NCBI GenBank assembly: GCA_964036045.1
Contig: OZ038381.1
Location: 123,573,708-123,637,707 of the forward strand
From: Eutreptiella sp. 'Long Island Sound 2002'
Lineage: Eukaryota; Euglenozoa; Euglenophyceae; Eutreptiales; Eutreptiaceae
DNA: 64,000 nt
Direction of reading: 5' to 3'
Positions within the stretch are counted from its first letter, which is position 1, and every line of letters starts with the position of its first letter. Below the pieces are notes generated by a model. That model ran no database searches. It was not told where the DNA came from and was given only the letters and a program-made list of their open reading frames with translations. The position numbers and the translations under genes were made by a program. Below, one piece after another: positions 8,973-58,795 of this stretch.

Positions 8973-9027
8973 AGGAGCCCCCACGGGAGTGGGACCTCGA
9001 AGGTCTCTCCTCCGAAAATCAGTGGTA
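8970..9027 (+). promoter_or_regulatory. Probable UAG readthrough signal between gag and pol
   Basis: UAG is followed by AGG AGC CCC. Downstream RNA can fold: CCCAC-GGGA-GTGGG, then ACCT-CGA-AGGT, both enclosed by GAGGAG pairing with CTCCTC. Element 1 has the same sequence, with ACCTCGGAGGT for the second hairpin. Pol continues in the same frame with no further stop for 1135 codons. The arrangement recalls gammaretroviral gag-UAG-pol. Readthrough itself is inferred. Confidence 0.65.
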
Positions 9028-12000: not shown

Positions 12001-12380
12001 GCACCTGGACCGCGAGGGAGAAGGAGACGTACGCCATTGTTTGTGCGCTCAGGAGGTGGTCTGGCCACATCGGATTGCAACCGGTGGTGGTTTGTACGGA
12101 CCATCAGTCCTTACAGAGCTGGCACAAGGAGCACGTCGATACCCCCTCGGGACCGGCAGCAAGGAGGTCCCGATGGCATGAGACGTTCGCCAAGTTCGAC
12201 CTCAGCGTCGTATACGTCCCGGGGAAGGACAACACTGTGGCAGACTGCCTCAGTCGATGGGCCTACCCCGAGGGCAAGGCTTGGATGGACATATCCAGCC
12301 ATGGGGACGCCGAGGAAACCGAGGAGGCCAAGCGCATCATCGAGATGGAGAAGGTCATGGAGCAAGAGGGGGTCAAGTGA
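8973..12380 (+). CDS. Element 2 Pol: protease, extra module, reverse transcriptase, RNase H
   Basis: In frame with gag after the UAG. An internal ATG at 9138 exists, but the open frame reaches back to the stop. The retropepsin motif VDTGAQVSLV is at 9372. A ~330-residue spacer contains TDVFASRDAP (about 9892) and a following KIIADRAKGILVI segment. Reverse transcriptase shows DLKHGYHQMPL, TPLGPMQWKVVPMG and FVDD (about 11398). RNase H shows RMDASDYAVGAVLEQ, REKETYAIV and CTDHQSL. Compensating 1-nt indels against element 1 between ~9030 and 9115 change the local sequence without closing the frame. It ends at TGA (12378-12380), where element 3 has a Cys codon, so the stop looks like a nonsense mutation. 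Integrase follows in the same frame. Confidence 0.9.
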   Translation, partial: RSPHGSGTSKVSPPKISGIPGKSEGTSGAGEGSRRAKTTEFRHSQPLETLPRELHVGTGHGKKEGATTESPVDGQDQPKIYTIRDHTPEVLMHPDVLELHAVRVVHTPHGDERQLHLKVRVRCGREEKVVDVLVDTGAQVSLVRRGLFKEEFLQPSRRPVRLKVANGEIMGGGTHEATISMEFWEHERLNRPDLAKRSTLSGNFYVADITDWDMIMGYDFMVANAIGALLHRATLVREDDECLTWLSTDYACGSSQWNAEEEDQIVQAVQAVGAKSRGDRGVQLTEYGMAPQGYDRMIQTLGAEAPETDVFASRDAPLLRKCRRHWHRGDSAWHRHWGLKEWGPMYWHGSLDNTRRTVEKIIADRAKGILVITGIGSTPCPLEGLKSTLDSITLNEMSFGLEEDLFIDAKGVSMPSPGQAWGTKAFLVDGAQAQPTGDEAFIRRVEAVPMKVMFEPKEGTDQPIDGIDVLSHAEIDDVVNYMRMGMHDRVAAKKRRAMVTSPHWWDDKMLVTGKYEKDMFLAGVMDHIADQYDGPVGSDPSTWNFPRVGTGSDEHQPEAANFRGLSVGIATHDDEDGISDEEKSDSDPEEVYTAVRSGVSIPKQAAEEAQENPKVPELKERLIKAYPRLFSGVANKNPPDRGRFGTAKIKLKPNPKVYHHREYQLQGDRAEAMKKLLAEFIERGWIEPSDSEWASPAFIVAKKEKGEWRLVVDYRGLNEQTEHDSYSLPLIDSILQKQQKKRIFTVLDLKHGYHQMPLHPDSRPCTAMSTPLGPMQWKVVPMGAKNGNAAFQRMLEDLLGPVRDCADPFVDDIIIGSGTENMTEDELIDAHEKDLRRVLSELDKHNMVCKPTKASLFVKEVEFAGHVVGHGQRRPMPGKLASLHHWEKPQTISELRSFMGFCNYYSGYVRMYAELSGPLHKMLQVGKFDGRKGSKKKLAWTPEAEDAFSRLKERLLGQLGLFLVDPDKGFVLRMDASDYAVGAVLEQIRDDGSHVPVAFWSRILAESQRRTWTAREKETYAIVCALRRWSGHIGLQPVVVCTDHQSLQSWHKEHVDTPSGPAARRSRWHETFAKFDLSVVYVPGKDNTVADCLSRWAYPEGKAWMDISSHGDAEETEEAKRIIEMEKVMEQEGVK

Positions 12381-13295
12381 TTTGTGGTGATGGCGAACCG
12401 TACGGACCTGGCCAAGTTCCGGGGTGCCCGTGTCCAAGCTATTCGAGAGGAAACCCTCGAGCAATGGATGGTGGCCCCTGTAGAGCTAGTCAGGTCGGTG
12501 CTCACAGAGGACTGGTCGGATGACTACGCGGCATCGGAGCACTGGAGCAAGTACTGGAATGCCGTGAGCGCCCCGTCGGACGACGAATGGCCCGAGGGCT
12601 TGACCGAGGATGGCGACAAGTTGTTCCTCAAGGACAAGCTGCTGGTGCCCGAAAACCGAGTGGAGGAGCTCATTGACCATTGGCACAACGCCCAGCTCAT
12701 GCACCCTGGCCGAGACAAGATGCAGCAGGACCTGGAGTGGCGTTTCAAGTTCCCTCCGGGGTACTACGCCATCCTGGATAGGTACTGCAGCGACTGTGCC
12801 GTGTGTCGGGCCACGAAGAGCCCCAACCACTCCACAGCGGGCAACCCGGTGTATACGGCTATACCGGAGGCCCCTATGCGGTCCGTGGCCATGGATGTAT
12901 TCGCCATGCCTGAGGTCACCGTGGAAGGAGAGACCTACGACTGTGTCATCCTGGCGGTGGATAGGCACAGTGGGTACATCGTGGCGGTCCCTGGCAAGAA
13001 GTCCAAGAAGAAGGACAAGAAGGACAAGCATGGAGTGGGGCTGCAGGCCAAGACTGTCGCTAATGCCATGATCAGGCATTGGCTGACAATTTTCGATGTC
13101 CCGGCTGTCATCTGCAGCGATCGGGGCAGTCAATTCGTGGGGACGTGGTTCAAGACGATGTGCAAGCACATGGGTATTCGGCACGCCAAGACCGTGGCGT
13201 ACCACAGCTGGTCGAATGGCCGGGCTGAGGTGGCCGGGCGGCAGATGTTCGAGAAGTTCCGCCAGCTGCACATTGACGAACCGGGCCGGAATTAG
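12381..13295 (+). pseudogene. Element 2 integrase, N-terminal and core domains (separated by nonsense codons)
   Basis: Continues the pol frame after the TGA. The zinc-binding HHCC domain is visible (HWHNAQLMHPG ... CSDCAVC), followed by the DDE core: D in AMDVFAMPEV, D in CSDRGSQF, E in SNGRAEVAGRQ. The core holds a Lys-rich insertion (KKSKKKDKKDKHG) not seen in element 3. It stops at a TAG where element 3 has Trp (NPRRNW), so that codon is probably a mutated TGG. Intact, this part would join viral cDNA to the genome. Confidence 0.85.
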
Positions 13296-14040
13296 TATAA
13301 CTCGCTTTTTTCGAGTACTCCAGGCGTATCACGACCTTCCGGGACCCACTGGACTGTCGCCCCATCGCATCCTGTTCCTACGGGATCGAGTGTCACGCAC
13401 TCTCCCGTGGATGAACCATGGCAAAGTGGCCCGGGATGCGAACGCTATGATGGCTGAGGCGGACGACACGGCGGCCAAGGTGTGCAAGGCACTTCAGGAC
13501 GAGCATGACAAGAGGGCCAAGTACTTCAAGCAAGGAAAGTTCCAGAAGTATGCTCTCCAAGACACCGTGTGGGTGGAGCGGCACCACAAGGATGTCCTGT
13601 CCAGGCATCGGCAGGCATCTTCGTATGTGCCGGTGGTAATCGTGCGGAAGGTCGGGCAGGATGTGTATGCGGTTCGTGTGGGGGATAACAAGATCCTGGA
13701 CCGCGACCATACCCAGCTTCATCCCCGAGCACCAGACCCCAGCGGACGTCCCGTCACCTTCGAGTTCACGGCCGGCGATGTGGACTCGGACGACGAGGGT
13801 GAGGACGACGATTTCACCGCGGAGAAGATCCTGGCGGACAAGCCGGACCCGGGGACGCCTGGGGGAAGGCTTTATAAAGTCCGTTGGAAGGGATTCGCCG
13901 CATCCAGGGATTCGTGGGAACTTCCGAGCAGTCTCGTGCCGAGGTATACCACGGTCTGGATGGACTACCTAAAGAAAAAGAATATTTCTTTGGATGTCAA
14001 GGACGTGTTGGTCCATTTGGTTGCTGCTGTAGCACCGTAA
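13296..14040 (+). pseudogene. Element 2 integrase C-terminus with chromodomain (frameshifted)
   Basis: After the TAG a T-run near 13307-13313 shifts the frame by one. The downstream frame then encodes the integrase C-terminal region (HRILFLRD, DTVWVERHHKD) and a chromodomain at about 13810-13990 (DFTAEKILADKP, YKVRWKGF, SWEL). Chromodomains on gypsy integrases steer insertion to modified histones. The domain itself looks intact. It is followed by a short hydrophobic tail and TAA. Confidence 0.85.
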
Positions 14041-14433: not shown

Positions 14434-16799
14434 TGAAGCCGGTTCGGACCCCCGTGGCCATCTTGGGGTCACTTGGGGTGTGTATCTATGTGCCGGCAAG
14501 CCGCCATTGGCTGATATCATACTCTCCCATCCACCTGAACTAACCCGATGTGATAGTGTGATAGGTTTGGCCATTTCGGCTATGAGCGGCCATATTCAGT
14601 ACCGAGGCGCCGCCAGCGGAGATTTATATAACGGAATATCAGGAATCAACAGGGTTTTATTATCATGATGTTTCCGTAATTTTTCAGCCTTTCGTTCTGA
14701 TGGTCAATGTATCGGCGACTGTCAGTTGGCTCGCGATTTTTCGTTAACCGATTGGTTAACTGTTATTTCCAGATATTTTGGCGGATACTCCGTTGAAGGG
14801 TCAGATTTCATCAGCAAAGGGTTCGTTGCTTCCGCAATTTTCTAAATAAGCACTCGAAATTTTAATCTGAATTTTTCGCGATGTCGAAATCGGATTTTCG
14901 ACTTCGACATCGCCGCACTTGATTTTGTCGTCTTCGAGTGGTCATACTCCTTTCCCTATGCCCGAATCAGGTTTCCCTTATACTTGCCACCCATTTGACT
15001 TGGAGATATAAGGGAAACAAAAGTGAATCGTGGGACCACTTTGAAGGACCATATCTACACGCGAGTGTGAGGAAAGAGAATAAGGAAGGTTGGTTTGCAA
15101 ACGCCTTGGTCTCAACTTAATTTAGGAAGCATCAAACGCCTTTGGTGTGTACACATGCCCGATATAGCAAGGGATAATGGTCAAGAGGGTATAAACTGAT
15201 ATATAACTCTTGGACCGTGCAACCAAACATTTTATTGTGACTTTCGAGTGTACCGCATGAGTGTTGGGGTTGCATAGCAACTTTTCTTTGGGTTCCTACG
15301 TATTTTTAACGTGAAGTTATGTCAATGGAGGGACATGGCATATCATGGTGGGAGCCATATTTTGAGGGTATGTGTTGTATGCATGGTATATGTTTGATAT
15401 GCTCACGCCCATGTTATATATCTTCGTGTGGCCGAAGAGAAGGGGAGCCATACGTGACAAGGGCTTTGCCCATGTCCCAATTGTGGAATTCAAAGCGCTA
15501 GACCAAGTCTACCGCGTATGTATTGCTCATGGTATGTTTGACAAAGAGATCCATGGGTGCACTCCCATTTTCATGGGGCATGTAGATATTAGTGGCGAAG
15601 GTATCTCCATGCGCCCGATTGGGGATCCAAGTGGGGGAATTGTTGGCAAACGGTTCCAATCATTTGTGTATTGAATCATGAGCGGATATCATGGGTGAGC
15701 ATAGAGATATACTATCATGACAACTTTGTATTTGGTCATATTTTCATGTTTTTGACCTCAATTTTTGCTCATTTTTGCGTTTTGTGTACTTACCTGGTCG
15801 GCAAACAGCAAGAAGCCTATGGAGAGTCGAACCATGGTATGTTGTTCATATGTTGGCATATGCTTTGGACTTGAACACCACCGTATGCCGGATTGCGTAC
15901 TCCATTTGGCTTGGCGCACGAAGGATCACAAGAATTGGTCTCAAGATCATGGGCTGACTTGGGCAGTGCGTGGCGCCCATATCCGAAGGGGTTTTGAGGG
16001 TAAAGTGGGGATGTACATGGGCATTGGCCTTTGGTCTCTATCCTCCATGAATACTAGACTTCGATTCCATGCATGCTTTGAGCCTTCGGATAAGTAGTAA
16101 CTTCAATTTTGAGCATATTTTTGATATATGGCCAATATGGTGTGAATTGGCAGTTTTTGACATGTTATGAGTTCAAACTCATAGGTCATTTCTCCAAGCC
16201 CATTCGACTCCAAGTCCAACCAAGGTTATGTCAGGGTACGGCAGGGTCCTGAGTGCCACTCTAGGCCATGACACACCACCTCCCCTATTGGGCTAGGATT
16301 TAGAGGCTTTGGAGTGAACACATTTTTGGGGTTTGTGTAATGACTTGTGACACATGGCATTCAGCCATCCCACTTGACCTGGTTCAGGGCAATATGTTGG
16401 TGAGTCAAGGGAAGGTCTTGAGTCCAGGGAATGAAAGGTTTATGGCTGTGGATGTGTATGTTTACCTTTTTCCCCAACTTTGCTTTATTTGTGTTCATAT
16501 GCCAATTTCAGGGCTTTCTTCCTTGGTGCAATTCTTGTACATGCCCGCCACCGTGGGAATACCGGTGTGCTGAACGAAAGCCCGCAGCCTGATTTGGATT
16601 GTGAATTGGGTTATTGCTGTATTTGTGGGATCTGGTTGCTATTCAGGGTTGAAGGAGGATTTTATTTTCTATATTTTTGGATTTTGGACCCTGGACTTTG
16701 AGGATTTTGAGAAATGCAATCGTTGATCAGGAGCAAGTCAGCAGGGGTGACAGGCGGAAGGGGCACAGCGGGGGCCGGTCCTGGTAGGGACCTTCTTTA
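14434..16799 (+). repeat. Element 2 3' LTR (2366 bp)
   Basis: Full-length LTR of the family, from TGAAGCCGG to CTTCTTTA. It contains ~200 bp (15561-15760) missing from the 5' LTR. Because the gag ATG is in the LTR, the 3' copy also encodes the first ~28 Gag codons (near 16715-16799) and then stops. Confidence 0.88.
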
Positions 16800-16803
16800 A
16801 GTC
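16800..16803. repeat. Target-site duplication of element 2 (AGTC), right copy
   Basis: AGTC follows the 3' LTR end and matches 3782-3785. Confidence 0.75.
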
Positions 16804-18548
16804 AAAAAAGACCAAACAAACCCCAAAAATGTGTTCACTCCCAAGCCTCTCAATCCTAGCCCAATAGGGGAGGTGGCGTGTCATGGCCTAGAGTAGTACT
16901 CAGGACCATGCCCTACCCTGACATAACCTTGGTTGGACTTGGAGTCGATTGGGCTTGGAGAACTACCCCATGAGGATGACCTCATAACATGGCAAAATCA
17001 GGCAAATCACACCATTATGCCCAAATATCAATTATATACTCAAAAATGCATATGGCAAATATCCAAATGCTCCATGCATGAGTCAAACCGGAAAGTAATA
17101 TACAAGGATGATATAGACCAAAGGTCGATGCCCAAGAATATCCCATCGTTGCCCCCGAAACCCCTCCGGTTATGTACATGACATGCTTCACAAGTCAACT
17201 CATGAATTTGAGACCTAATTTTGTGAGGCCTCGTGTGCCAAGCCAAAGTGACCACGTGATCCGGCATATGATGAGGTACAACACCAAAGCATATGCCACC
17301 ATATAAGCAACATACCGTAGTTCACGGATCTCTAGGCACTTTACTGTTAGCCGACCAGTTGAGCACATAGAACACCAAAATGAGCATAAAATGAGGTCAA
17401 AAACATGCAAATATGTCCAAATACAAGGTTGTCATGATAGTATATCTCTATGCTCACCTATGATATCCGCGCATGGTTCAATGTACAAATGATTGGAACC
17501 ATTTGCCAACAATTCCCTCACTTGGATCCCCCATCGGGCGCATGGAGATACCTTCGCCACTCATATCTACATGCCCCATGAAAATGGGAGTGCACTCATG
17601 GATCTCTTTGCCAAACATACCATGAGCAATACATATGCGGTAGACTTAGTCTAGCGCTTCGAATTCCACAATTGGGACATGGGAAAAGCCCTTGTCACGT
17701 GTGGCTCCCCATCCCTTCGGCCACACGAAGATATATAACATGGGCGTGAGCATATCAAGACATATACTACCAATATCACACATAGCCCTTAAAATGGGCT
17801 CCCACCATGGTATGCCATGCCCCTCCATGGTCATAACTTTGAGTTAAATGGACGTGAGAACCTAAAGAAAGATGCTATGCAACCCTAACACTCATGCGGT
17901 ACACTCGAAAGTCGCAATAAAATATTCGGTTGCACGGTCCAAGAGTTATAAATCACTTTCTACCCTCTTGACCACTATCCCTTGCTATATCGGGCATGTG
18001 TACACACGAAAGGCGTTTGATGCTTCCTAAATTAAGTTGAGACCAAGGCGGTTCCAACCCAATTCTCGAAATTGTTATACCTCGCCGTGAGCCGGAGATA
18101 TGACCTTTCAAAGTGGTCTCACAAATCACTTTTGTTTCGACTATATCTCCAAGACAAATGAAGGGCATAACAAAAGGAAGGCTGATTCGTGATCGGGGAA
18201 AAATGTCGGAACACTCGAGATTCATCATATCAAGTGCGGCGATGTCGAAGTCGAAAATCCGATTCTGAAAGTCTGAAAAAATCGGATTAATTTTGCGAGT
18301 GTATAATATGAAAATTGCGGAAGCAACGAACCCTTTACTGCTGAAATCTGACCCTTCATCGGGGTTTCCGCCAAAATATCTGTAAATAACAGTTAACCAT
18401 TCGGTTACCGCAAAATCACGAGCCAACTGACAGTCGCCGATACATTGACCATCAGAACGTAAGGCGGAAAAATTACGGAAACATTATGATAAAAAAACCC
18501 TGTTGATTCCTGATATTCTGATATATTAACCTCAGCTGGCGGTGCCTC
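16800..18548 (-). repeat. Element 1 5' LTR, middle segment
   Basis: Reverse-complement homology to the element 2 LTRs runs through the whole stretch, with clear divergence (substitutions and small indels). It stops on the left exactly at the element 2 target duplication and on the right at the TIR of the DNA transposon. It is the middle ~1.75 kb of one interrupted LTR. The short ORFs here are not genes. Confidence 0.85.
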
Positions 18549-18572
18549 CCCTAGTGACCCCTTTTGCACACC
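18549..18572 (+). repeat. Left terminal inverted repeat of DNA transposon
   Basis: 24 bp, from CCCTAGTG to GCACACC, perfectly inverted at 25933-25956. Preceded by the TC duplication at 18547-18548. Confidence 0.9.
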
Positions 18573-18582
18573 TTTGAGCGTA

Positions 18583-18676
18583 GCGGTTGAACAGCGGTTG
18601 AACCCAGTTGAACAGCATGTTGCTGTTCAACCTCCCAGTTGAACTCGGTTGAACGCGGTTGAACAGTTCAACTGGC
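18583..18676. repeat. Left subterminal GTTGAAC cluster
   Basis: Eight copies of GTTGAAC/GTTCAAC within 94 bp, most preceded by CG (CGGTTGAAC). Dense short subterminal motifs are typical transposase-binding sites in large plant DNA transposons. Binding is inferred. Confidence 0.75.
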
Positions 18677-19050
18677 CTATCGCGCCAATCGGTGGCGCGT
18701 GCTCACGCGATCACGCGTTCAACAGTGGTTAATTGGTAAATGTAGCCTGTCCCGCAATTTTGGTTTTGAGCTGTTCCCTAAAACCCAGTTAAAACCTGGA
18801 ACCTACTACCAATGGGCAGGTGGCGGTGTGGTGACCACATACATGAAAACTGGAGCCGGCACGTGGTGGCCAACACGTGGCGGTAAAGGGAATGCACATG
18901 GTGTGTAGTAGTTGCCACCTGCTCGCTTTTTACTATATACATGACGCATTGAATTGAAGAATATTTAATTTCACCTTTGTGCAATATGGTAGTGTCACCA
19001 AAAATAACGTAACAATAAGAACAAGTTAGAGCACCAAGAGATTTCCCATT

Positions 19051-21114
19051 GTGGTTTCTTACTTGTATGCAAGGATCCCTCTCATTTTACAATCAAAAAT
19101 GCCAACGTCAAACTTGAAGCAATGTATTGCAGATCACTACACTGGATTACAATCGGATGAATTGATGAGTGATTTGGTCAACTTGTTCACCGCATCCAAG
19201 GGTGGTCGTACACTATGGGAACGCCTCAAGACTAGAATGGGTAGTGGGCGGCGTAGTCGACGCAATGACCGGAAGGTCATGGAAAGGGTGTTTACACCCA
19301 AGGATGCCGTCCGGTTGATCCTTGACTTGGAAATGCCGAAAAATAGGTGCTCTACATGTCCTACATGCATACCATGGTGCGTTGCATGTATGCAAGGAGT
19401 GTTCAACCGTATGCGAGATGCGTTCAAGTGTGCGGTTGAACACATATGAAACAAATGCGACTCATGTTTGTGCAACATGGAGTGCCTACCTAGGTTTCAT
19501 CGAACTATCATGTATATGTCTTCTTCCACATGCAATTGTGGCCCCATTTACATGCTACCATCAAGTGTTTTTTCATGAAAACAACAAATTGAACATTTGT
19601 TAAAGTCATGTTCAACTGCCCGGTTGAACAAGTTGAACGATTTCAACCAACGCTCACGTTGTGCACCAACGTTCACGTTGTGCGCGTCACTTTGTTCGAA
19701 TTAACATGCCTCAAATTTAGGTACAAGAATCTAATATCTTGGGCCAACCGGCGAACAAAAGCTGCCCAAGAAAAGTTGGATGTTCATTGGGTGCACCCAT
19801 TTCCATCTTTCAAGCGTATGCACCGTGAATGGCAACGATTGGGTAAGGCGCAAAAATTGGAAACCACTATTCACAATGGCAAAGTTGGTGTACGATGGGA
19901 CTTACCGCATTTTTTTAAATTATGTCGCAACACAAAAGGAGCTCATGGAGTCCATGGACTTTCCAATGATCGATGGCGAGCAATTATTCGTCATCATAAT
20001 TAGAGGCGACGGGTTCCCATGTGGCTCACGCCCATGGGTGCAAATTGCGATTGGCTTTGCCAATCACATGGAAAAGGCCCGCACTCTTCAATATAATTGG
20101 ACATTGGATGTCGCATTGACATCTGAACATGACGACGAAGCAATGCGTGTCTTATTTTGTGCCACGTTGCAACACATCCAAACTATCATTGATAGTGGAT
20201 ACATCCAAATAAATAATGTTTATTATCGTGCACGAATCATGTTGGGTGGAGACTCTCCATGGTTGCGTCTACTTTTAGGATTGTCGCCTTACTATGCCAT
20301 TGGAAGCATCTACTCTTTTTCCACATGGTGTAGTAGGCGTGAACGATGGATGAACACTAAGGTGCGGCGCACAACGCACCTTGATGGAAAATTCCGCGCT
20401 TTGTACGATAAAGGTTTGGATTGCACTACGGCCAAAGGGTGCACTTCAAAACCAATGCTCCGCGTGGATGACCGCACACGGTTCATTGTGATGTGCATTT
20501 TGCACTTGGTGATCCGACTTGGCGACTACCTTACACACTTCATTCGCGCGTTTTGCAAACGTTTGCCGCCTCTTGTCCGTGCACGCGTGCAAACCGTGTT
20601 GAATGAATCTAAGACTAATATTAGTCTCAAAGGTAAGGCAAGCCCGGACGGTGAGGAGACATGGCGTCTCCTCGCTAACTGGACAATAATAGGTAAGACC
20701 ATGAAGTTGCCTCCAAAGTATATATCTGTTGTACAAGAAATGGCAAACCTTTTGACGGCCATGCAATCATGGCGCTACGAGGCCGCGGCCCTTTCAAAGT
20801 GTAAACGTGTGGCACGTCGATTTCAGAAATTAATTTGTCCGCATAAGCGGTCACCTTACCTTTTGTGGCTTAGAAGAGAGGCTACGGAGGTTCTGAAAAA
20901 TATTTACCCATGGGGGGCGGGAATGTTTAGTGGGGATATAGTAGAATCACTAAACTATATATTAAAAGACCACTTCTTATGCTCAAGTGGGCGTGGCGGT
21001 GGCCCCGGTGGGCGTGTAGCTCGTGATAAGAGCATGCTAAAACAAGCGCACGAAAGGATCTTTCTGGCAAAAGAGCTACCACGGTGGGAACGTACGAGTG
21101 CGGCTGGAGAATGA
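19051..21114 (+). CDS. Spliced DDE-type transposase of the DNA transposon
   Basis: Exon 1 is 19051 (or ATG 19099) to 19346. Intron 19347-19720 (AG|GTG...TTTAG|G, phase 2) joins it in frame to an exon starting RYKNLISWANRRTK. Somewhere between ~19850 and 19940 the frame must move by one, through either a short intron (for example 19890-19938) or an indel. The rest runs open to TGA at 21112. Candidate catalytic residues are D in RGDGF (codon 20008), D in LGGDSPW (20251) and E in DIVESLN (20944), spaced 80 and 230 residues. Between the last two is a helical insert with RFIVMCILHLVIRLGD. The order D-G ... G-G-D ... L-H ... E-S resembles large uncharacterised repetitive protein families I recall from other protists and animals. 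Role: cutting and joining the element ends. Confidence 0.72.
19347..19720 (+). other. Intron of transposase gene, with GTTGAAC motifs
   Basis: Donor AATAG|GTGCTC, acceptor AAATTTAG|G. Splicing keeps the frame (phase 2). It holds five GTTGAAC/GTTCAAC motifs (about 19401, 19434 and 19608-19640). Confidence 0.75.
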
Positions 21115-21124
21115 TCAAACTCTA

Positions 21125-21279
21125 GGTGTGGGCTATGTGGTTTGTCGTTGGTGCTTCATACTTTATGCTCCGTGTTCCGTGTGCAACCGTGTTCAGCGGC
21201 ACTTCAAGTTGTTCAACCGGTCGGTTGAGGTGTGCAAGCATGTTCAACCGCGCGAGTGTCTATTTTTCTTTGTTTTTAG
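21125..21279 (+). other. Spacer between the two transposon genes, ending in a splice acceptor
   Basis: TATTTTTCTTTGTTTTTAG ends at 21279, 9 nt before the ATG of the next gene. This suggests a 5'-UTR intron or a spliced link to an upstream exon. Contains GTTCAACC motifs at 21217 and 21242. The matching donor is not certain. Confidence 0.5.
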
Positions 21280-21288
21280 GGGGGCGTC

Positions 21289-24200
21289 ATGGAAGGACAA
21301 CAAGCGTCGGCGCAACAAGCGATTGGGCTCGCACTCATGCAGTTCTTACAGGCCGCACAAGGGGTACAAGGACCGCAAGCAGCACAAGGTGCCCAAGTGC
21401 CCCAATTGGGACCACCGCAATTGGCCGCGCCGCAATTGCCACACCCAAATGTAATTGCGCCGACCCAAAGTGGGCCTACGGGATCAACGGGGCCGATAGG
21501 CGGGGGTACAACAGGAGGAGCATCCTTGCCTTTGCCACAAGTGGTCCCAGCGTTGGATGCTTTGTTCCCAGCGAAGGAGGAGTTGACCCAATTTGGGGTG
21601 TGCCACGACTCATCGTCGTTGGCGGATGACTCCCCTCAATGGAGATGGCTCCGGGACATCACACCCCGGTTCATGTACCGGAGGAGTGTCGGGGTGTGGA
21701 TGAAAAAAAACGCCCCGTATGACCTCCATGGCCACCGGAGCCACCCGTGGACAACGAAAGCACTCACAGCCCAGAATTGGACCGAGTGGAAACTTTTGAG
21801 GATTGGTTTGAGCACGCGCCCCGGAATTGCCATGACGTTGTCGGAGACCGCCCTCCATGTCCTCTTTAGGGTATGGGAATCCTACGGGCTGGGCACTGCA
21901 GTGGCACCCCAATGGACCGGCCCTGGGTGTGCTGGCCGAAGTGGCGGCCATGGCAAGGGCCATGGGCCGCAATTCTTTTTTAAAAACGTGGAGTCCGTGC
22001 CGCACAATTGGTATGACGCCTCCGACGCCACCAACTACAACGCGTCACCGCCATCCATGGTCGAGGTCGGGGGAACCATATCAAGTGGCGGGCGCAGCAA
22101 GAAGTCCAGCATGGAGGAGGCACCTGCAGCGGTTGCACCACCAACCACACTACCCAATGCGGCCACAAGCACTTCGTCAATGATGCGAGGCGTGGAGCAG
22201 GTGTGTGCAACAACTGTTCAACCGGTGTTCAACCGTGTTCAACCGGGCAGTTGAAGCAAAGCGAACGGAGAGAGTATGGATACAGTCCGTGTGTGACACG
22301 TTCGCAGTGGATGTTTTGGGCAATTGGTGGCTAGGACATTGAGACCTGCATGTCTGGGATGCATACATGGTTCAATAATTGAATACCCTGTGTTAGTGCG
22401 CTGAGGGTGCCGTGCATATGAGGTGGTGGCCACATGTGTTCAACCGGTGTTCAACCGGTCGGTTTCGCACCTCAACCCCATTCAACCGCTCATCTCTCTT
22501 AGTTGTCGGCCCAAGACGTCCCACCCCACATGTTCGTCATTGACAAACGCGGACCGGCGGTCATGCTCCATGGAGCATGGCCGCCATTACCCATCGATGA
22601 ATGGTGGCATGGGCCAGGTGCACGGGTTTCCGATCGCGACGCCCTCGTGAAGAAATGGACCCGAGGACTCCATCGCGCACTCCAAGAGCTTGCACATGGC
22701 GGGTCCCCACATGCGATTGACACACATGCGATTGGCACACCCATGGAGTCCACCCCAAAGCATCGCAGTCAGTCGGGCAAGGCGAAGCAATTCCCCCAAC
22801 CAATGTTTGGCGTGAAGGAGGAATTGAGGGATGACATGAACACCAACGATGGCACGTGGTGGGAGAATTCTAATGCATGGTTTGCGCCGGATCATGGAGA
22901 CGTGAAGAGTGAAAATCCCGTGGTCGACGAGGCAGAGAGCTCAACATCACCCTTCCGAGAAGAGCCAAAAGTCCACGTCCCCATTCGTGGACTCTTGAAG
23001 CCTCCACCAAAGGCAATTCCACAAGCAAAGGGAGGAAGTGCAAGCCCAAAGGTTTTGCTCCTCCAAGCGCAAACTGCGCTCAAACAAAGGGTGCAAGACA
23101 AAACCGACAAGAAGAAGAAGAAGGACGGGCGGGGAGTGCATTCCAAAAAGCGGCAACGGGTGGCAACGTCAGCGGACTCGTCGTCCGACTCAAAAGGGTC
23201 AAGTGCAAGCCAATTGTCGGACAATGATGAGGGGTGGACACCTCCCAAGAAAAAGGAGGCTCCCAAGGCAAACAAGAAGAAGAAGATCGAAGCAAAACCA
23301 AAGAAGGACAAAAAGGACAACGACAAGAAGGAGAAGGCATCTCTGCGGCCCAAAGACGCCAACAACGCAAATGTGGGAGCAAAGGAAGGACAACGGTCAA
23401 CACCGAACGTGACGGAGGCAAGTGGCACAGCGAAGGCAAGTGGCGCGACGAAGGCAAGTAGCGCGATGGAGGCAAGTGGCGCGACGGAGGCAAGTGCCGC
23501 GACAGAGGCAAGTGGCGCGATGGAGGCAAGTGGCGCAATGGAGACAAGTGCAAGCACAAGTACCACGGTGCAAGCAAGCGCACCAGCGGAAGAGGTGATG
23601 TCCCCATGTTCCTGCGTATGCATATGCCTCTACATTTGGTTGCAATGCGCCGTCACAACGTCGAAGCATGCCGGTGCTATAGTGTGTGGCGGTACGTCGT
23701 GAAACACGGTTGAACACAGTTGAACACTTCAACCGGTCGGTTGAACACGGTTGAACGCGGTTGAACTCGGTTGAACTCTCTGCAACGCTTTTGCATAGGA
23801 GATGGTGAAAGTGCAACGATTGGAGGAAAAACGCCGCCTCGACGAGAAGCGCCAAGAGGCACCTGAGAAGTTCGGGTTGCCAGCGGGATCCGCAGTACGG
23901 TGGGTGCTGACCGAGGGTCCAGACAAGCGCCACCGCATCGCAGTGGGCGCCGTGGCAAAGCCAACGAAGGACGACCCCAAGCCACGGAAGGGGGAGGAGA
24001 TGGTGAAACTCCCCCCCCAATGGCCCGGAGAGCAGAGTGAGGCCAACGTCACGTGGCCAGTCATTGTGCGCCTCCGCCACACAGCGCTCACGAGCGAGGA
24101 TGAGGCAAAGGCCATGTTGGCGAAGTGGGAGGAGAACATGGAGAAAGCGACCAAGGAAACCGAGAGCGGAGATGCAAGACATGGAGGCCACGACAAGGAA

Positions 24201-25295
24201 ACCGAGAGCGGAGATGCAAAACATGGAGGCCAAGACGCGGCAACCGAGAGCGGAGATACAAAAGATGGAGGTCAAGATGGGGCAAGCACGGAAGCAATCG
24301 CAAGCACGGAAGCAATCGCGGGAAGTACCACCAATGCGTCGGACAATGGCACCAAGGAGGACTCCGAGGATCCCATGAAGGAGAGCACTTCAAATGACGT
24401 GGACGATTCCAACAAGGAGGGCATGTCCGTGGAGGATTCGAACAAGGAGGGCACGTCCGTGGACGATGCCAACAAGGAGGGCATGTCCGATGCCCTCAAC
24501 AACCCCAAGGTGGAGCACGATGCCAAGGAGAATGAACGACCTCATGTTGGAGATGATGCAAAGGAGGAAGGTGGACCTCAAGACGGCATGCACGAAGGTG
24601 GGAGCGAAAGGGCAATGGCGAGCACAAGGGAGAAGGAGTGTGCCGATGATGGGAAGGAGGAGGTCAGACCGGAGACGCAAGCGCTATGGGCCGTGGACTC
24701 AAAGTGACTAGCCGACAAGGTCCATGAAGCCTTACAAGGCTTGAAGGGATGGCTCCACAAGAAGAAACATGGAGGAGAGTACCGCCGGATCCTATGGGGA
24801 GCAACAAGGAAGTTTCCGACGTTTACACACGTGGGCATGTCTAAGAGGACACATGATGATGCACATGTTGTGCGCCTTGTAAATAATTTCCTCACGGTTT
24901 GTTTACCGTCCCTCAGTTACACCGCAATTTCCATCGTGTGGGGCAACGGATGTGCACCCATGGATGTACACAAACATCCAAGGGATGACTCCGCGTTGAG
25001 TGGGGTGGTGGCGGTGGGTGATTTCCGTGGTCGTGGTTTCTTTACTACGGCGTGGATGGGTGGTGGGGGGGAGGGGGGGGCGCAGCGTCAAGCATGGATG
25101 CAATGTGGGCGTCAAATTGTGCAAGGCGTTGTTGTGGATGCACGAAAGGGGGTGATTTTCAATGCGTGGCGTACGCATGGGCCGGAGCGATGGGAGGGTG
25201 AAAGGTATGCCATCGTGGCGTATACATCTATCGCGTGGCACCGCCTTCCCGCTCCGATGCGCACTGAACTCCTGGACCTGGGGTTCCCATGGTGA
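21289..25295 (+). CDS. Spliced Lys-rich protein with C-terminal TET/JBP-like 2OG-Fe(II) oxygenase
   Basis: Exons 21289-22200, 22503-23594 and 23799-25295 join in frame (both introns phase 0, donors AG|GTG, acceptors TTAG and ATAG). The product is ~1165 aa with one internal TGA (24705). N-terminus: Gln/Pro/Ala-rich. Middle: Lys-rich, nuclear-looking (DKKKKKDGRG, KKKKIEAKPKKDKKD) with EASGA, ESGDAKHGGQD and SNKEGMSVDD repeats. The last ~195 residues read as a double-stranded beta-helix oxygenase: FLTVCLPSLSYTAISIVWGN, then PMDVHKHP-x3-S, VVAVGDF-x-GRG, and THG ending GERYAIVAYTS. This is the order seen in TET/JBP enzymes, which oxidise the methyl of 5-methylcytosine or thymine in DNA. The metal motif reads D-V-H (codons 24963 and 24969) where H-x-D is expected. 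Distal His is codon 25176 and the 2OG-binding Arg is codon 25203. The TGA would separate the oxygenase, so this copy may be inactive. Confidence 0.7.
22201..22502 (+). other. Intron of oxygenase gene, GTTCAAC-rich
   Basis: Donor GCAG|GTGTGT, acceptor CTCTCTTAG|TTG, phase 0. Contains at least five GTTCAACC motifs, near 22218-22245 and 22439-22458. Confidence 0.8.
23595..23798 (+). other. Intron of oxygenase gene, GTTGAAC-rich
   Basis: Donor AGAG|GTGATG, acceptor TTTTGCATAG|GAG, phase 0. About six GTTGAAC motifs fill 23706-23776, just before the acceptor. Confidence 0.78.
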
Positions 25296-25396
25296 CAGGC
25301 ACTGGGATTGTTCATCCAATTTGACGTGAATTGTTGGTGCCATTGTTGTGTGATTGCGATTACGTGCGGCATTTCTCCTAACGCGCTCCAGTGTGT

Positions 25397-25457
25397 GTTC
25401 AACCGTGTTCAACCGTGTTCAACCGTGTTCAACCGCGCGGTTGAACACGCAGTTGAA
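25397..25457. repeat. Right internal GTTGAAC cluster
   Basis: Four GTTCAACCG units in tandem (9-10 bp period) followed by two inverted GTTGAAC units, in the 3' flank of the oxygenase gene. Confidence 0.75.
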
Positions 25458-25638
25458 CATGGCCGAACGCGTATGGGCGGCAATATGAAAGTAGCAGAAA
25501 ATCCATGGTTTTGTGGTTATAATTGATTTGGATAAGGCAGGTGCACACTGCAAAAACCTCTGAACACCATCCACGATAGAATGGAAGCCAAAGGACCACA
25601 ATGAAGGTCAAAGCTTAGGGGAATGTGTCAAGTGGGGT

Positions 25639-25917
25639 GTTCAACCGCATGGTTGAACACCAAGGCGGCGTTGACGCTACTCTTGGACATGATAGAAAGG
25701 GAGTGGCAATGTGAGGGGTATGGCATGGAATAGTGCATTGGGCATTAGTATGTTGTTAAAAGCATGGTACATCGTCATGGATGGTTTGGAATGGCATGGT
25801 GATACGTCAAAAGTTTAATTTTTGGTAAAATTGCACTACGCGCGGTGGGGGTGTTCAACCGCTGTTCAGGGGTGGTTCAAGGGCCCAGGTGAAGTCAGTT
25901 GAACACCGGTTGAACAT
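25639..25917. repeat. Right subterminal GTTGAAC motifs
   Basis: Pairs at 25639-25660 (GTTCAACCGCATGGTTGAAC) and 25893-25917, plus a single copy near 25854. They mirror the left subterminal cluster. The sequence between them has no convincing gene. Confidence 0.65.
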
Positions 25918-25932
25918 AGGACATGGCACCAT

Positions 25933-25956
25933 GGTGTGCAAAAGGGGTCACTAGGG
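25933..25956 (-). repeat. Right terminal inverted repeat of DNA transposon
   Basis: Perfect inverse of 18549-18572, ending CACTAGGG, followed by the TC duplication at 25957-25958. Confidence 0.9.
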
Positions 25957-28440: not shown

Positions 28441-30289
28441 CTACAGATTTATGAAGAGATATTGAGAAAATATCCTACCATCATGTGAAAATTGCCCACA
28501 TGGGCCAAGCCCCCCCTTCCCGCCGATCTCATCCACAAGGCCACGGCCAGAGCCAAAGCTGCTGCCGCACGCAAGGCAACCAGGGGCCCCCCGACCCCCA
28601 CACAGGCGACCCAGGCACCCCTGCAGCACACCGGGAAGCCCCCCAAGCTGGCGCCGGCGCCCTCACAGCTCCGGACCCAGGTCCTCCTCAACCTCGAACC
28701 GGACCCCAACCCAAAACCCGATCCAAAACCCAAACCGGCGCCCAAACGATCACACCACCAGCAACAGCACCACCACCAACACCACCCCACGCAGCCCCGA
28801 ACACCACAAACGCAAAGAAAGCAACCCAAGCGACACCGCCCTAACCCAAACCCTAACCCAAACCAGGACCCCCCGCCCGCCCCCCTCCCCCCAGCGGCCG
28901 CCGCCACCACAGAGGCGGCCACCCAACACGACCCTGTCCAGACCCTCGTCAACATCCCCATCTCCAAGCGCCCCGTCATCCACCCCCCACAAACCACCGC
29001 CGCCGGGGGCCAGACCGATACAGGGACGTGGGACCCCTCGACCTCAGTCACCGGTAAGCCCGGCCCCCGACCCGCCCCCGCTACCCACCAAACAATACAG
29101 CCCCAGGGATTGCGCACGATGCCCGACCCCCAACCCCCACCAGGGGGACCGGAATATCCACAAGGAGCCCTAGGGCCATACTTGCAGCATCATCCCCACC
29201 ACCACCAGCGCCACCGGCACCAACGGCCCCACCACCACCAACACCACCACCACCAACACCACCCCCAGGTATACGAATGCCCACCACCCTACCCCACCGG
29301 GCCACCACCCCCCGTGCACCAGCAGCACCAGCGTATGGGATGGCAGCAACCGGGCGATCCACCCCCATACCTCGCCTACCACCAGGGGCCAGCCCCCGTA
29401 TACCAGGAACTGTATCCCCCCGGCCACCACGTCCATGCCAGAGGGGCCCCCCGGGCCCAATGCCACCGGGGACAGTCACACGACCCGTACTACCAGCCGC
29501 CGCCGCCGCCGCGTCCTTACGCGGCGGATCCATGGAGGGCGGGGGACCCCCCCCCCCCCCCCCCGGTACCAGGCGGCACCACCCGAGGACCCCCAAGACC
29601 CGCCGACACCTCCTGACTGGCCCGACTCGTCCCGGGACAAGGCCTGGTCCCGCAAACGGCAGCGCACTAACTCCCCCCCCGCACGGCACACCCACCCCCG
29701 GCGCTCACGCTCCCCACACCGCCACCACGCCTCAGCCGCTCACTCGTGCTGCTCCCGCTCCCCTAGGCGCCACCAAGACCCCCCAGGGCCCCGGTCCCGG
29801 CGCCCCCTCCCCCGGGCGTCGCCACACGCGCCATCGCCGCCCCATGTCCACCTCCCCCTCCCCCCACAAGCCCCACAGGGCTTCATGTTCCCCCCGCCGC
29901 CCGTACACGTCCTCCATCCCCAGCCCTCGCGACCGCCGCTCCCGCTCCCGCTCCCCCGGGCGCCGGCACACACGCCACCGCCGCCCCATGTCCACCTCCC
30001 CCTCCCCCCACAAGCCCCACAGGGGTACCCGCTCCCCCGGCCGCCCGTACCCATCCTCCATCCCCAGCCCCCGCCACGGCCGCTCCCGCTCCCCAGGACG
30101 CCGCCACGCACGCCACCGCCGCCCCATGTCCACCTCCCCCTCCCCCCACGAGCCCCGCAGGGCTTCCCACTCCCCACGCCGCCCATACCCGTCATCCAAC
30201 CCCAGCCCCCGCCACTGCCGCTCCCGCTCCCCCAGGCGCCGCCACGCCCGCCACCGCCGTATGTCCACGTCCTCCTCCCGCCACTCCAG
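28441..30289 (+). other. C- and A-rich low-complexity tract, left half
   Basis: The plus strand is extremely rich in C and A and poor in T and G, with CCACCA-type and poly-C runs (for example near 29550). Long plus-strand frames exist but encode Pro/His/Thr/Arg-biased low-complexity sequence, so coding status is open. The same bias resumes at 47.4 kb on the other side of element 3. Confidence 0.55.
29811..30260 (+). repeat. ~140-bp tandem repeat, three copies plus part
   Basis: Units begin near 29811, 29955, 30092 and 30231 and share the core CCCCATGTCCACCTCCCC. In one frame each encodes ~46 Arg/Ser/Pro/His-rich residues (RSRSPGRRH, RRPMSTSPSPH), resembling an RS domain. It may be a real SR-like protein or just a GC-rich minisatellite. 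Confidence 0.65.
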
Positions 30290-34656: not shown

Positions 34657-35460
34657 TTAGTCCATGAAGGGGGTATTGATCCGCGGCACGAACGAGGAGA
34701 CGGGTTCCCAGGTGTTGTGGGACGGCCCATAGCCTCGCCAACGAACCTTGAACTCCAGGCCTCCGGGTGCCGAGGCGTTTGGACGCTGAGCCAGGATCTT
34801 CTCGACCGTATAGTCGTCCTGCTCAGCATAATCGTCGTCCGAATCGGCCTCATGTGCGGCATAGTCCAGGAACGCATGCCGGCCACGGAGGTCGGGTTCC
34901 CGCACACGGAGTTGACTCTCGTGGCGCTCCCGGAACTGTCCGTGACCCACCTTGATGCGGTAGGTGTCCTCACCAATCCTGCGGACCACCTCTCCGGGTG
35001 TGAACCAGGTTTTGGTGCGGTGGGTGCCCATAGGGCGGGGTCTGATCACCCACACCGGGTCTCCCACCCTGAACCTTTGCGCTGTCGAGCTCGGGGCGGA
35101 CTTCTGACGCTCAGCATGCTCCTTCTCGAGCTGCTGGCAGATGTCCCGCGCCGTCGCCTCTTGCCGCGCGCAGAATTCCTTGGCGTCCATAGCCATACCA
35201 TCACCAGACAAGAGAAGTCCCCGACCCAGGGGGTCCCTGCCGAACAGGATCCGGTGAGGGGACAAACCACCCGGAGTGGGGGTGTCATGATGGGCCTTCA
35301 GAGCGGGCCACATCTTTTCAAACCAGTTCCGACGTGGATTGGTGATGTGAATCTTGCGCAGCTTCTCGATCAGCTGCCGTCCAGCCACTTCAGCTCGGCC
35401 GTTAGACCGGCTGAGATAGGCGACGATCTTGGCGTGACGTATTCCCATGAGGGAACACAT
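34657..35460 (-). pseudogene. Element 3 integrase C-terminal half with chromodomain
   Basis: Reads on from the integrase core in another frame: GIRHAKIVAYLSRSNGRAEV (with the catalytic E), HRILFGRDPLG, DPVWVIRPRP, and at the end a chromodomain (DYTVEKILAQRP, FKVRWRGYG, NTWEP). The preceding core lacks 19 bp relative to element 2 (between the second Asp motif and GIRHAK), which shifts the frame. The chromodomain has no frameshift or stop. Confidence 0.85.
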
Positions 35461-38400
35461 GGAAACTGGGGCCCTCGGTCACTGCAAATGGTGCGGGGGA
35501 TGTCAAAGATGGTCAGCCAATGACGAATCATCATGACTGCCACTTCCTTGGCAAGCAACCCCTTTTTGCGTGCCGGAACGGCTACTACGTAGCCACTGTG
35601 GCAATCCACACAAAGAACCACACAGTCAAAGGTCTCCTTGCCAATGTTCACTTCGGGCATGGAGAAGACGTCCATGGCCACGCTCTCCATGGGCTGGTCA
35701 GGCACCGGAGTCCATTGGGCTTCCCCCTTGACGTTCCGGTTGTCAGGATTGCAGGCCTGACAGACCGAGCAACCCTTCCTGACCTTCTTGATGGCGCTGT
35801 AGAGATTAATCTGGTCGATCTCGAACCGGCGCTGCATGTCCAGGGCTTGCTTCTTGACCCCTGGGTGCATCATGTGCTGGTGCCAAGCCTCACACAGCTC
35901 GAGCACCCGGGACTCCGGTACTAGCAGCTTACCATTCCGGTAGAGCTTGCCATCTTCCTCAGTCAGCCCCTTTGGCCACTTCTGCCCGTCATCAGGGTCG
36001 GTCACAGCCCTATACTCGGCCGCAAAGGCCTCGGACTTAGCGTAGTTGTCGGTCCAGTCGTCCTGGAGGCAAGATTCAGGGAAGAGGTGCTTGTCGGACT
36101 CAGCTCCATCAGGGGCGAGTACTCTGACCGCTCTGCCCATCCTCGTTCCGAGGGGGGCATCCGCAGCCATGACATCGAAGCATTTAACACCCTCCTGCTC
36201 CATCAGGCGCTCCATTTCGATGATCCTTTTGGCTTCAGCGGTCTCAGCCTCATCGCCATGGGCAGACACATCTGTCATGCCCTTGCTGGCGGAATAGGCC
36301 CACCTACTGAGACAGTCGGCCACGGTGTTGTCCTTACCAGGAACATACACAACCGTGAGGTCAAACTTGGTCAAGGTCTCATGCGATCTTGCCCGTCGGG
36401 AGGCGGGACCAGAGGGGGTGTCCACGTGCTCCTTGTGCCACGACTGCAGACTCTGATGTTCGGTGCAGACAGTGACGGGATGGAGGGCTATGTACCCAGC
36501 CCATTTCCTGAGAGCCATGACGATGGCATACGCCTCCTTTTCACGGGGCGTCCACGTCCGTCTCTGGCCTTCCGCCAGGACTCGGCTCCAGAAGGCCACG
36601 GGCACGTGCCTCCCATCGTCAAGCACTTGCTCCAACACAGCGCCAACGGCGTAGTCGGAAGCGTCGGTGCGCAGGACGAACCCTCGGTCGGGATCCACGG
36701 GGTGCAGACCCACTGCGGATAGCAGCGCCTGCTTCATCCCCTCAAAGGCACGGTCGGACTCAGCAGTCCAGACCAGAGCCTTCTTGGACCCTTTCTTGGT
36801 CTCCTCTCGGTTGCCCTTGAGCATGGTCATCATGGGGGCTGCATACTCGGCATACATCTTGATACACCCCGAGTAGTAGTTGCAGAACCCCAGATACGCC
36901 CGTAGCTCAGAGACCGGTTTGGGCTTTTCCCAGTGCTCAATTGCAGCCACCTTGCCAGGTATGGGCTTTCGCTGCCCGTTCCTGACTACGTGGCCAGCGA
37001 AGACCACCTCGCTTACCGCAATGGTGGCCTTGTCACTGCTGCCCGTGAGTTTGTGCCGAACAAGAAGGTCCAGCACTCGAGTGGCATCCCTCTCATGTGC
37101 CTCCAGGAGCTCCTCGTAGCTCATACTGGGGTCCCCGGGCGCGATGATCACGTCGTCCACGAAGGGGTCCGCACAGTCACGCACCGGCTCAAGCAGGTTC
37201 TCCAGCATCCGCTGAAAAGCCGCATTGCCGTTGGTAACGCCCATGGGCATCAACTTCCACTGGAGAGGTCCAAGTGGGGTGCTCATGGCTGTGCAGGCAC
37301 GGGACTCCTCGGGGAGAGGCATCTGATGATAACCATGTTTCAGGTCAATCACCGTGAAGATCCTCCGCCGGTGTTGTTTTTGCAGCATGTCCTCAATGAG
37401 GGGCAGCGTATAGCTGTCGTGCTGCGTTTGGGCGTTTAGGCCGCGGTAATCGACCACGAGCCGCCACTCACCGGCCACCTTCTTGGGGACGACGAAGCAC
37501 GGGGAGGCCCACTCGGAGTGGCACGGCTCCAACCAGCGTCTCTCGATGAAGTCACGGAGGATCTTCTCCATGGCCTCCTTCCTCTCGCCCCTCAGGGCAA
37601 ACTCCCGGTGCCGATACACAGGGGGGTCCTGCTTCAGTCGTATCTTGGCCTCGCCATACGGTCCACGCACCGGTGGGGGAAACACAGGTTTTCCGCTGAA
37701 GAAGGTATCACCATACTTCTGCTTCAGCCTGGCCCTCAATGCCTGGATCTTGGGGCAATCGTCAGACTCCGCCTTGGCTTTTCCGGGCACCTGGACCACT
37801 GAGCTTACTTGAGGGGTAGCGACCTCTCTCGGTTTCGGCTCGGACGGTCTTCCCAGGTGGCCCAAAGGGCCATCTCTGGTCTTGCCTCGGAATAGATCGC
37901 CGTAGGTGGGTGGGTTACCGCCGATTGGCTCGTCCTGGCTGGACATGTGGTCCAGCACCCTCTGCACGAAGGTGTTCCCATCATAGGAACCAGAGACGAT
38001 GGACTCCACTTCCCACCAGGCTTTGTCCTGGCCTCTGCCCTCACGCTGGCTTCCCCAGTCGTGAAAGGGCTGATCCATATACCCCTGAACCAGATCCAAC
38101 TCCTCTTCTGTGAGGGGGTCTTCCGATTCTCCGATGTCAACAGGGGAAACCGCAAAGCATTGCCGCCAGGGCTCTGCTATGATGCGGTTGACACATACGA
38201 AATCCGTGGCGTTGGCCTGATCAAGGCCCCCATCCACATAGTGGAATTCCGTTGGCCATCTCTGGGGTGGCATGGGCTGTCCCTTAGCGTCCTGATAGAC
38301 ACTCTCTCCAGCCGGTAGGACGACCTTGTTTAAGGTCATGTTGGTCAATGAGACCACCCAATGTGAGGTACTTTCCTCGTCGGTGCATCCCATAGGAACA

Positions 38401-57468: not shown

Positions 57469-58795
57469 TGTATGATATGAGGATCCCTGAAGGGGGTTGC
57501 GAAAGGTGTCTGGACATACTTACAGATGCACATTTACATAAGGTTTGCCTAAAATAACAGCCTGTCTGCCACCTATCTGGCTCAATAACTCAATGGGGGA
57601 ATCCTTGCACTGCGCGCGCAGTGCACACTACTTTTAGACTATGTTCCCCCCGAAGAGCCCCTAGGCACGCCCCTTGGAAACACCCTGAGAACTAGGCGAC
57701 CCAAACTGGACCAGAGGGGACCTTGAGGGGGACCTTCCTGGTTCTTGTGGCATGGTGAAGGACCAGGGGCCTTTGGGGGGGAACTTGACTGTGTGTTGGG
57801 CAGCGGAGATGGAGGGCAATCAGGTGGCGAGTCAAAACTTGGGATTGCATTGCCGATTCACCACTCTCAACCCATCTTGGTGGTATTCCAAGTGGAGGAG
57901 TCCGTCTTCAGCCGTCCCAACCACCGTGGCAGGAGGTCGCAGGCCATTGGAGCGGGTGTAGAACACCCTATCCCCAATACTGAGATCCATGGAGAAAATG
58001 GGCCTGAGAAATGAGGAGGGAAGTATGATGTCCTGTAGCAGGCACCCTCAAAGTGTATCACCATATCAATCAACCAAGAAAAAGAGTAGATGTGGCGGAA
58101 ATGTGCAAAAAATGTGTGCAAAAAAGTAGAAATGGGTGAAACAGGGTGAACATCCAAAAATGCCAGATCCCCGATGCATCAAAACCTACTACCAAACAAC
58201 AATGATGCCCAAAGTACCACAAAGTATGGGTTTCTACTACGGCCAGACGCCCAAATAGTTGCATTGCGTGCGCACTGCGCTTAAGGCGCCCCCAATATCA
58301 TAAATGCAATTTTGTGACTTGGGCACCCTAAAATCAAAAAAAAATTATGGCATGGCCTTGCTGTGCTTTGTGCATGCAACCCGCCAACACCCCCGCCCCC
58401 GGCACACACATGCAATGGGTGTGACAAACACGCACTAGTCAGAAAGATAGTCCGGACACCAGGTCTCATCAGGTGGAATCTGGTGCTACTAGGCACCTTT
58501 GTGCAGGAAGAAACTGCACAGCAGGGTGATGGCCACACAACGCAGCATCTTCAGCAGGCCAGGGCTGAGAAGCGCCAGGCACATCTGTGGGGGAATGTTT
58601 GCCCGGCACGCGCCCGGCGCACTACTTTTCTATTAACTATCCCGACTTCAGCCCCAGATTTACCCTCTCATGGAGAAGCCCCCCAAGTGGACCACGTTGG
58701 ACTGCACACCTTCCCTACAAAGCACGTTGCATAATAAGGCAATAGTTGTGAATTCAACAACTCCAAATGTCATTTGTATTGTACTTAACAAACAT

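Follow-up and report, generated by a model that had tools for sequence, protein, structure and literature searches.

The window, that is, the whole stretch of 64,000 nucleotides that was analysed, contains a transposon, designated element A, which carries two spliced genes, an open frame lying behind an in-frame stop codon at the end of the second gene, and several clusters of a short motif. The exon borders of genes 1 and 2 were assigned from open frames, splice consensus and homology. The features are the following:

18549..25956, plus strand: element A, whole transposon; 7,408 bp, TIRs starting with CCCTAGTGACCCC, TSD of 2 bp (TC here)
18586..18723, no strand: GTTGAAC cluster at the left end, 9 sites
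19099..19346, plus strand: gene 1 exon 1; open frame, GT-AG, with a homologous stretch in families B and C
19401..19638, no strand: GTTGAAC in intron 1 of gene 1, 5 sites
19721..21114, plus strand: gene 1 exon 2, encoding the transposase-like core, whose D, D and E-type motifs were recognised from relatives and alignment, frameshifted in the window copy
21211..21248, no strand: GTTGAAC between genes 1 and 2, 2 sites
21289..22200, plus strand: gene 2 exon 1; open frame, GT-AG phase 0, domain kept in families B and C (tblastn, 32-44%)
22216..22455, no strand: GTTGAAC in the first intron of gene 2, 5 sites
22503..23594, plus strand: gene 2 exon 2; open frame, GT-AG phase 0
23709..23776, no strand: GTTGAAC in the second intron of gene 2, 6 sites
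23799..24704, plus strand: gene 2 exon 3, ending where the UGA starts; 302 open codons, N-terminal part 44% identical in family B
24705..24707, plus strand: UGA in frame, with CUAG behind it, as the proposed site of readthrough; TGACTAGCC in families A and B, TGA in C, D, E and F
24708..25295, plus strand: domain judged TET/JBP-derived; 195 codons and a stop, with HKH, distal HGP and GER, from hhalign and a six-family alignment
25397..25915, no strand: GTTGAAC at the right end, 11 sites

Twenty copies from the 2.28-Gb genome to which the window belongs served to fix the ends of the element at 18549 and 25956. The terminal repeats start with CCCTAGTGACCCCTTTTGCACACC, and a 2-bp TSD, the dinucleotide varying from site to site, was present at all 16 loci with both ends found among the 20 loci fetched. 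The aligned parts of the copies are about 98-99.7% identical, many copies being internally deleted, and the domain of this family (family A) was matched at 95-100% identity at 150 places or more, which is a lower bound, scoring having been confined to the 150 best among 3,688 first-look candidates. Element A is a very abundant DNA transposon. The original prediction had placed a transposase, the domain and a motif array inside one pair of TIRs, and all three were indeed found within 18549-25956. An amplified partial element is found at C10:25541000-25550900 (L018), where right-hand pieces occur three times in tandem at a spacing of about 2,630 bp.

The protein search with the gene 1 product gave 87 relatives at E <= 10, from 34 to 99% identical, and the D, D and E-type motifs are conserved across the 22 of them that were aligned. 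The family B transposase is 60% identical to that of A. The transposase exon of the window copy is frameshifted relative to 14 of the 15 copies covering the place, and intact copies, such as P0006, exist. The transposase-like protein has no sensible match in Pfam, NCBIfam or PDB, so that its superfamily stays unclassified; a single member matched NblA at E 0.0011, which was taken as chance. The C(2)C and H(3-4)H motifs were not seen by eye between the second D and the E of the alignment. An identity of the element as KDZ was rejected on the 2-bp TSD at 16 of 16 loci, as against 7 or 8 bp, and on the lack of a Pfam transposase match, and an identity as CACTA/EnSpm on the ends, which read CCC..GGG and not CA..TG. 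A KDZ, Plavaka or CACTA transposase was likewise discarded, as no sensible profile match was obtained and the ends and TSDs do not fit. In the best explanation element A is autonomous, a DNA transposon whose superfamily stays unclassified.

Other sequences of the window are of interest for the genomic setting. At 15000-18152 the element adjoins another repeat, whose inverted arms are long (958 nt at 84%), and a sequence like the right part of this repeat interrupts, from about base 5660 as judged by eye, the first family C copy (C1, L029 joined to L043). Reverse-transcriptase and RNase H frames of LTR-type retroelements lie at 8973-14037 on the plus strand and 35373-39536 on the minus strand, a chromodomain frame (13087-14037) standing behind one such stretch, and a 138-bp tandem repeat of 3.5 copies occurs at 29803-30284 in a proline- and serine-rich open frame. 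The minus strand carries an S1-domain gene at 55855-57519, and a photosynthetic host is suggested by its best matches, a 'Ribosomal protein S1 homologue' and, closest among solved structures, chloroplast S1.

The frame 24708-25295 had been described originally as the last exon of a spliced gene. The frame and the strings quoted from its translation were found exactly there, except that the GRG string reflects a substitution of the window copy, all 20 aligned copies having another base there and reading GGG, like P0001. The frame is no plain last exon, because the in-frame TGA at 24705-24707, and nothing else, separates it from the upstream exon. The junction of the window reads AAG TGA CTA GCC, and TGACTAGCC was found at every family-A site read, namely 23 distinct sites in 21 loci (30 sites in 28 loci before duplicates were removed, L001-L008 repeating the window and L009-L015). 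Family B (L044, L040) has the same nine bases. The junction is TGACTCGCA in family C (L048, L049), TGACTTTCC in family D (L061) and GCTTGATGG in families E and F (L062 and L064, a single copy each), so that TGA is conserved in all six family representatives, followed by CUAG in A and B and by other contexts in C to F. A second D copy (L063) is frameshifted close to the junction, and in four B-related proteins the stop is replaced by a sense codon (P0095 R, P0102 C, P0132 W, P0136 F). Of the 150 scored A places, 146 have a frame that is open for exactly 195 codons and bordered by stops on both sides, as do 57 of the first 63 rows listed for family C. Reading of TGA as a sense codon was dismissed, since TGA also terminates the transposase and domain frames. 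Folding of the RNA behind the stop showed nothing unusual in the three stretches considered.

It is unlikely that the domain is reached by a route other than readthrough, either with the UGA spliced out in a small unseen intron or with translation from an internal start. GT and AG dinucleotides do lie on either side of the junction in the sequences read, and the A domain has no Met before residue 44 (P0001). Against this, the upstream frame is long, homologous and in phase with the domain in each of families A, B and C, the stop is TGA in six families, and the residues ahead of Met 44 are conserved: over residues 1-43 pN is lower than pS in 14 of 15 family pairs, and therefore coding conservation starts directly behind the stop. 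The UGA-CUAG context is known for efficient readthrough, and according to PMC4132726 it acts in this way in mammalian OPRL1, OPRK1, AQP4 and MAPK10. The comparison of the families thus makes it likely that the UGA is read through in part of translation, and the domain is probably made as an occasional extension of the product of gene 2 (protein 2).

Five further families with a related domain were recognised, 28-48% identical, that of family B being 42-48% identical to that of A. The first C copy seemed to have no domain and is in fact interrupted by other sequence; the domain is present in two further C copies, of which L049 is internally frameshifted. In 15 of 15 family pairs pN is lower than pS when the domain is taken as a whole, pS being near saturation. 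The related domains and the low pN indicate that the frame is more than a chance one. The occurrence in other copies that the original prediction had asked about was found at the 150 or more places and in the five further families. Family D was observed at many places with nearly equal scores and intact 187-codon frames (e.g., C15:23861974), and for this reason it may be a second lineage that moved recently.

The proposed relationship to TET/JBP proteins could be examined at the level of profiles. Single domain sequences matched no 2OG-oxygenase model in Pfam, PHROGs or NCBIfam, neither 44 aligned domain members nor family C gave a 2OG-oxygenase match in Pfam, and the comparison with PDB sequences gave no sensible match. 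As yardsticks, a TET/JBP protein encoded on a 49-kb contig of the assembly (L050; PF12851, E 6.9e-21) and seven phage relatives (L054-L060) were used. With nine A, B and C sequences hhalign scored 34.9 against them, compared with 26.8 for the best of 300 column shuffles and 14.8 for the reversed profile. The six-family profile scored 46.1 against phage TET/JBP (Prob 89.8, P 1.8e-6). None of 200 shuffles came near this score, the highest giving 22.7, though shuffles make an easy null; eight segments of the transposase alignment, taken as a control, reached at most 13.1. The predicted 2OG-oxygenase match was thus missing for single sequences and appeared once the six families were combined. By family, B alone scored 36.8, A alone 20.6 and C alone 19.2, the last two below the best shuffle of 26.8.

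The domain and the phage proteins (PF12851) are co-linear in the core and share the first His, an Asp at +5, the distal His and the Arg, and they differ in the second ligand, which is Asp in the phage proteins and His in the domain, in an insertion ahead of the distal His and in a shorter His-to-Arg spacing. That the domain is unrelated to TET/JBP and its motif order due to chance is very improbable. The missing matches in Pfam, PHROGs, NCBIfam and PDB would fit such a view, while the hhalign score exceeds those of the shuffled, reversed and transposase controls, and the alignment puts the first His, distal His and Arg on their TET/JBP counterparts. The comparison with other 2OG oxygenases gave a divided result, as four of the eight TET/JBP templates scored above all 14 E. 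coli controls (AlkB, YbiX, RoxA and TauD among them) and the other four did not. On this alignment evidence the domain is, with high confidence, TET/JBP-derived.

Three TET-like genes of the host lie below the Pfam cut-off (L051, L052 and L053 on C21, C5 and C10), two with HRD and L053 with a changed motif. They do align with phage TET/JBP (hhalign 51.1), whereas hhalign gave no alignment between them and the domain (13.3 and 13.6). The gene L050 (contig C2034) is of the canonical phage type and perhaps belongs to a contaminant phage. A search of viral contigs for relatives of the domain or of L050 confirmed none.

The metal site departs from that of TET/JBP. The first metal motif is not HxD, but reads HKH in family A, and HTH, HVH, HTH, HTH and HDH in the representatives of families B to F, so that none of the six has HxD or HxE. 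All six families keep the distal histidine, which is aligned with that of the phage proteins, and the arginine after it, the 2OG-binding one in TET/JBP, occurs as G[EQD]R in five families, being replaced by P in the single F copy. Three B-related database proteins, with HTD (P0094), HTL (P0106) and HTN (P0112), look like decayed copies. TET and JBP have HxD, according to PMC11065753, and HxE occurs in one type of fungal transposon (PMC12730594). The descriptions of TET/JBP and of fungal TET transposons in the parts of these two papers considered here contain no HxH, and a literature search for HXH in the facial triad of 2-oxoglutarate enzymes pointed to Jmjd6. With HxH in place of HxD in the six representatives, the domain is not supported as an ordinary DNA-base oxygenase; of the original TET/JBP-like DNA-base oxygenase the ancestry stood, on profile-profile comparison, and the ordinary enzyme did not. 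The name 'TET/JBP-derived' is preferred to 'TET/JBP dioxygenase'.

Alternatively, the extension might be a TET/JBP fold without catalytic activity that reads or clamps modified DNA or recruits host factors, any anti-silencing being then non-enzymatic. The replacement of HxD in all six representatives, the loss of the arginine in F and the report that HxD mutants of JBP are inactive, giving no product (PMC11065753), speak for it. On the other side, families that are 28-48% identical to one another retain both histidines of the motif, the distal histidine and, in five of six, the arginine. Free drift explains this less well than a working metal site does, and a dead fold is on the whole rather unlikely. 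Judged from the sequences, catalytic activity of the domain may be assumed only tentatively, at slightly less than an even chance.

Counting both strands, the window has 43 GTTGAAC sites, of which 38 lie in element A. None of the 38 is in coding sequence, which makes up 69% of the element (binomial 3e-20, a figure that is overstated, the true one being weaker because tandem sites are not independent). Families B and C have words of their own, GTTGCAC with 23 of 25 sites non-coding and GTTTGAA with 13 of 16, each in one copy with approximate exon borders; two of the three coding GTTTGAA sites lie at the end of the transposase frame. A family-specific word is thus massed in the non-coding DNA of A, B and C. 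As described in PMC5735166, Arabidopsis VANC21 binds a nine-base motif massed in the non-coding parts of its own element, and the VANDAL/VANC motifs differ from one related element to another. The arrays might instead be transposase-binding sites or expression enhancers with no relation to the domain, a reading that has a real though lesser likelihood. Subterminal repeats occur at the ends of some transposons, and motif clusters are present at both ends of element A too; most of the 38 sites, however, are situated in introns, between the genes and at a distance of some hundred bases from either end, and coding sequence is free of them. No DNA-binding domain was recognised in protein 2.

The genome has 55 matches to C5-methyltransferases. 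In 19 copies of element A, the window included, singleton C-to-T changes were counted at 37 of 13,321 CpG sites and at 48 of 45,423 sites elsewhere, a 2.6-fold excess per site, compared with 1.3-fold for transversions (25 and 66). The excess and the methyltransferase matches fit CpG methylation of the element, which is plausible.

It is tempting to speculate on how these parts act together. Element A would produce the transposase-like protein and protein 2; the majority of ribosomes would halt at the UGA, giving protein 2 alone, and a minority would pass it, giving protein 2 joined to the TET/JBP-derived domain with its HxH...H metal site. Protein 2 may bind the family-specific motif in the introns, the intergenic gap and the ends of its own element, and because it would recognise the motif both products could be brought to the element's DNA. 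There the extension may act on modified bases, most likely by processing 5-methylcytosine, and so counter silencing. This model of readthrough, motif targeting and base processing against silencing is, as a whole, the most likely of the readings listed here, and is put forward as tentative. Targeted anti-silencing, taken by itself, is possible, at a somewhat lower grade. More doubtful still is the wider view of a self-targeting epigenome-modifying transposon, in which a DNA-binding protein reads its own sites and a leaky UGA doses a three-histidine enzyme, possibly with a new reaction or base specificity.

If the model is true, transposon-borne TET/JBP would extend past the surveyed fungi to a probably photosynthetic host, a DNA transposon would dose a DNA-modifying domain via stop-codon readthrough, and sequence-targeted anti-silencing, as in VANC, and enzymatic anti-silencing, as proposed for fungal TET+ elements, would be united in one gene. 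No oxygenase domain is known in VANC. The natural HxH form in six families offers a sharp test of how much change the iron site tolerates in the TET/JBP superfamily, and mapping of methylation over the element is directly feasible because at least 150 near-identical domain copies exist in one genome. The UGA gate and the HxH site appear to be new.

Among known systems, the likeness to VANDAL/VANC of Arabidopsis (PMC5735166) lies in the motif pattern, a short motif in the element's own non-coding DNA with a word that differs between relatives. Close counterparts are the fungal DNA transposons with a TET domain (TET+), reported in eleven lineages (PMC12730594), which likewise carry a TET/JBP-related domain beside a transposase. 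They have HxD, or HxE in one type, whereas element A has HxH; they show the TSDs and transposases of named superfamilies, unlike the 2-bp TSD and unclassified transposase found here; the portions of that paper considered here mention no stop-codon gate comparable to the UGA junction; and they reside in fungi, the host of element A being non-fungal as far as the S1 gene tells. With OPRL1, OPRK1, AQP4 and MAPK10 (PMC4132726), families A and B share a conserved UGA-CUAG and conserved coding sequence behind it; families C to F lack CUAG, readthrough in element A is predicted, and the extension is here a whole domain of 195 residues.
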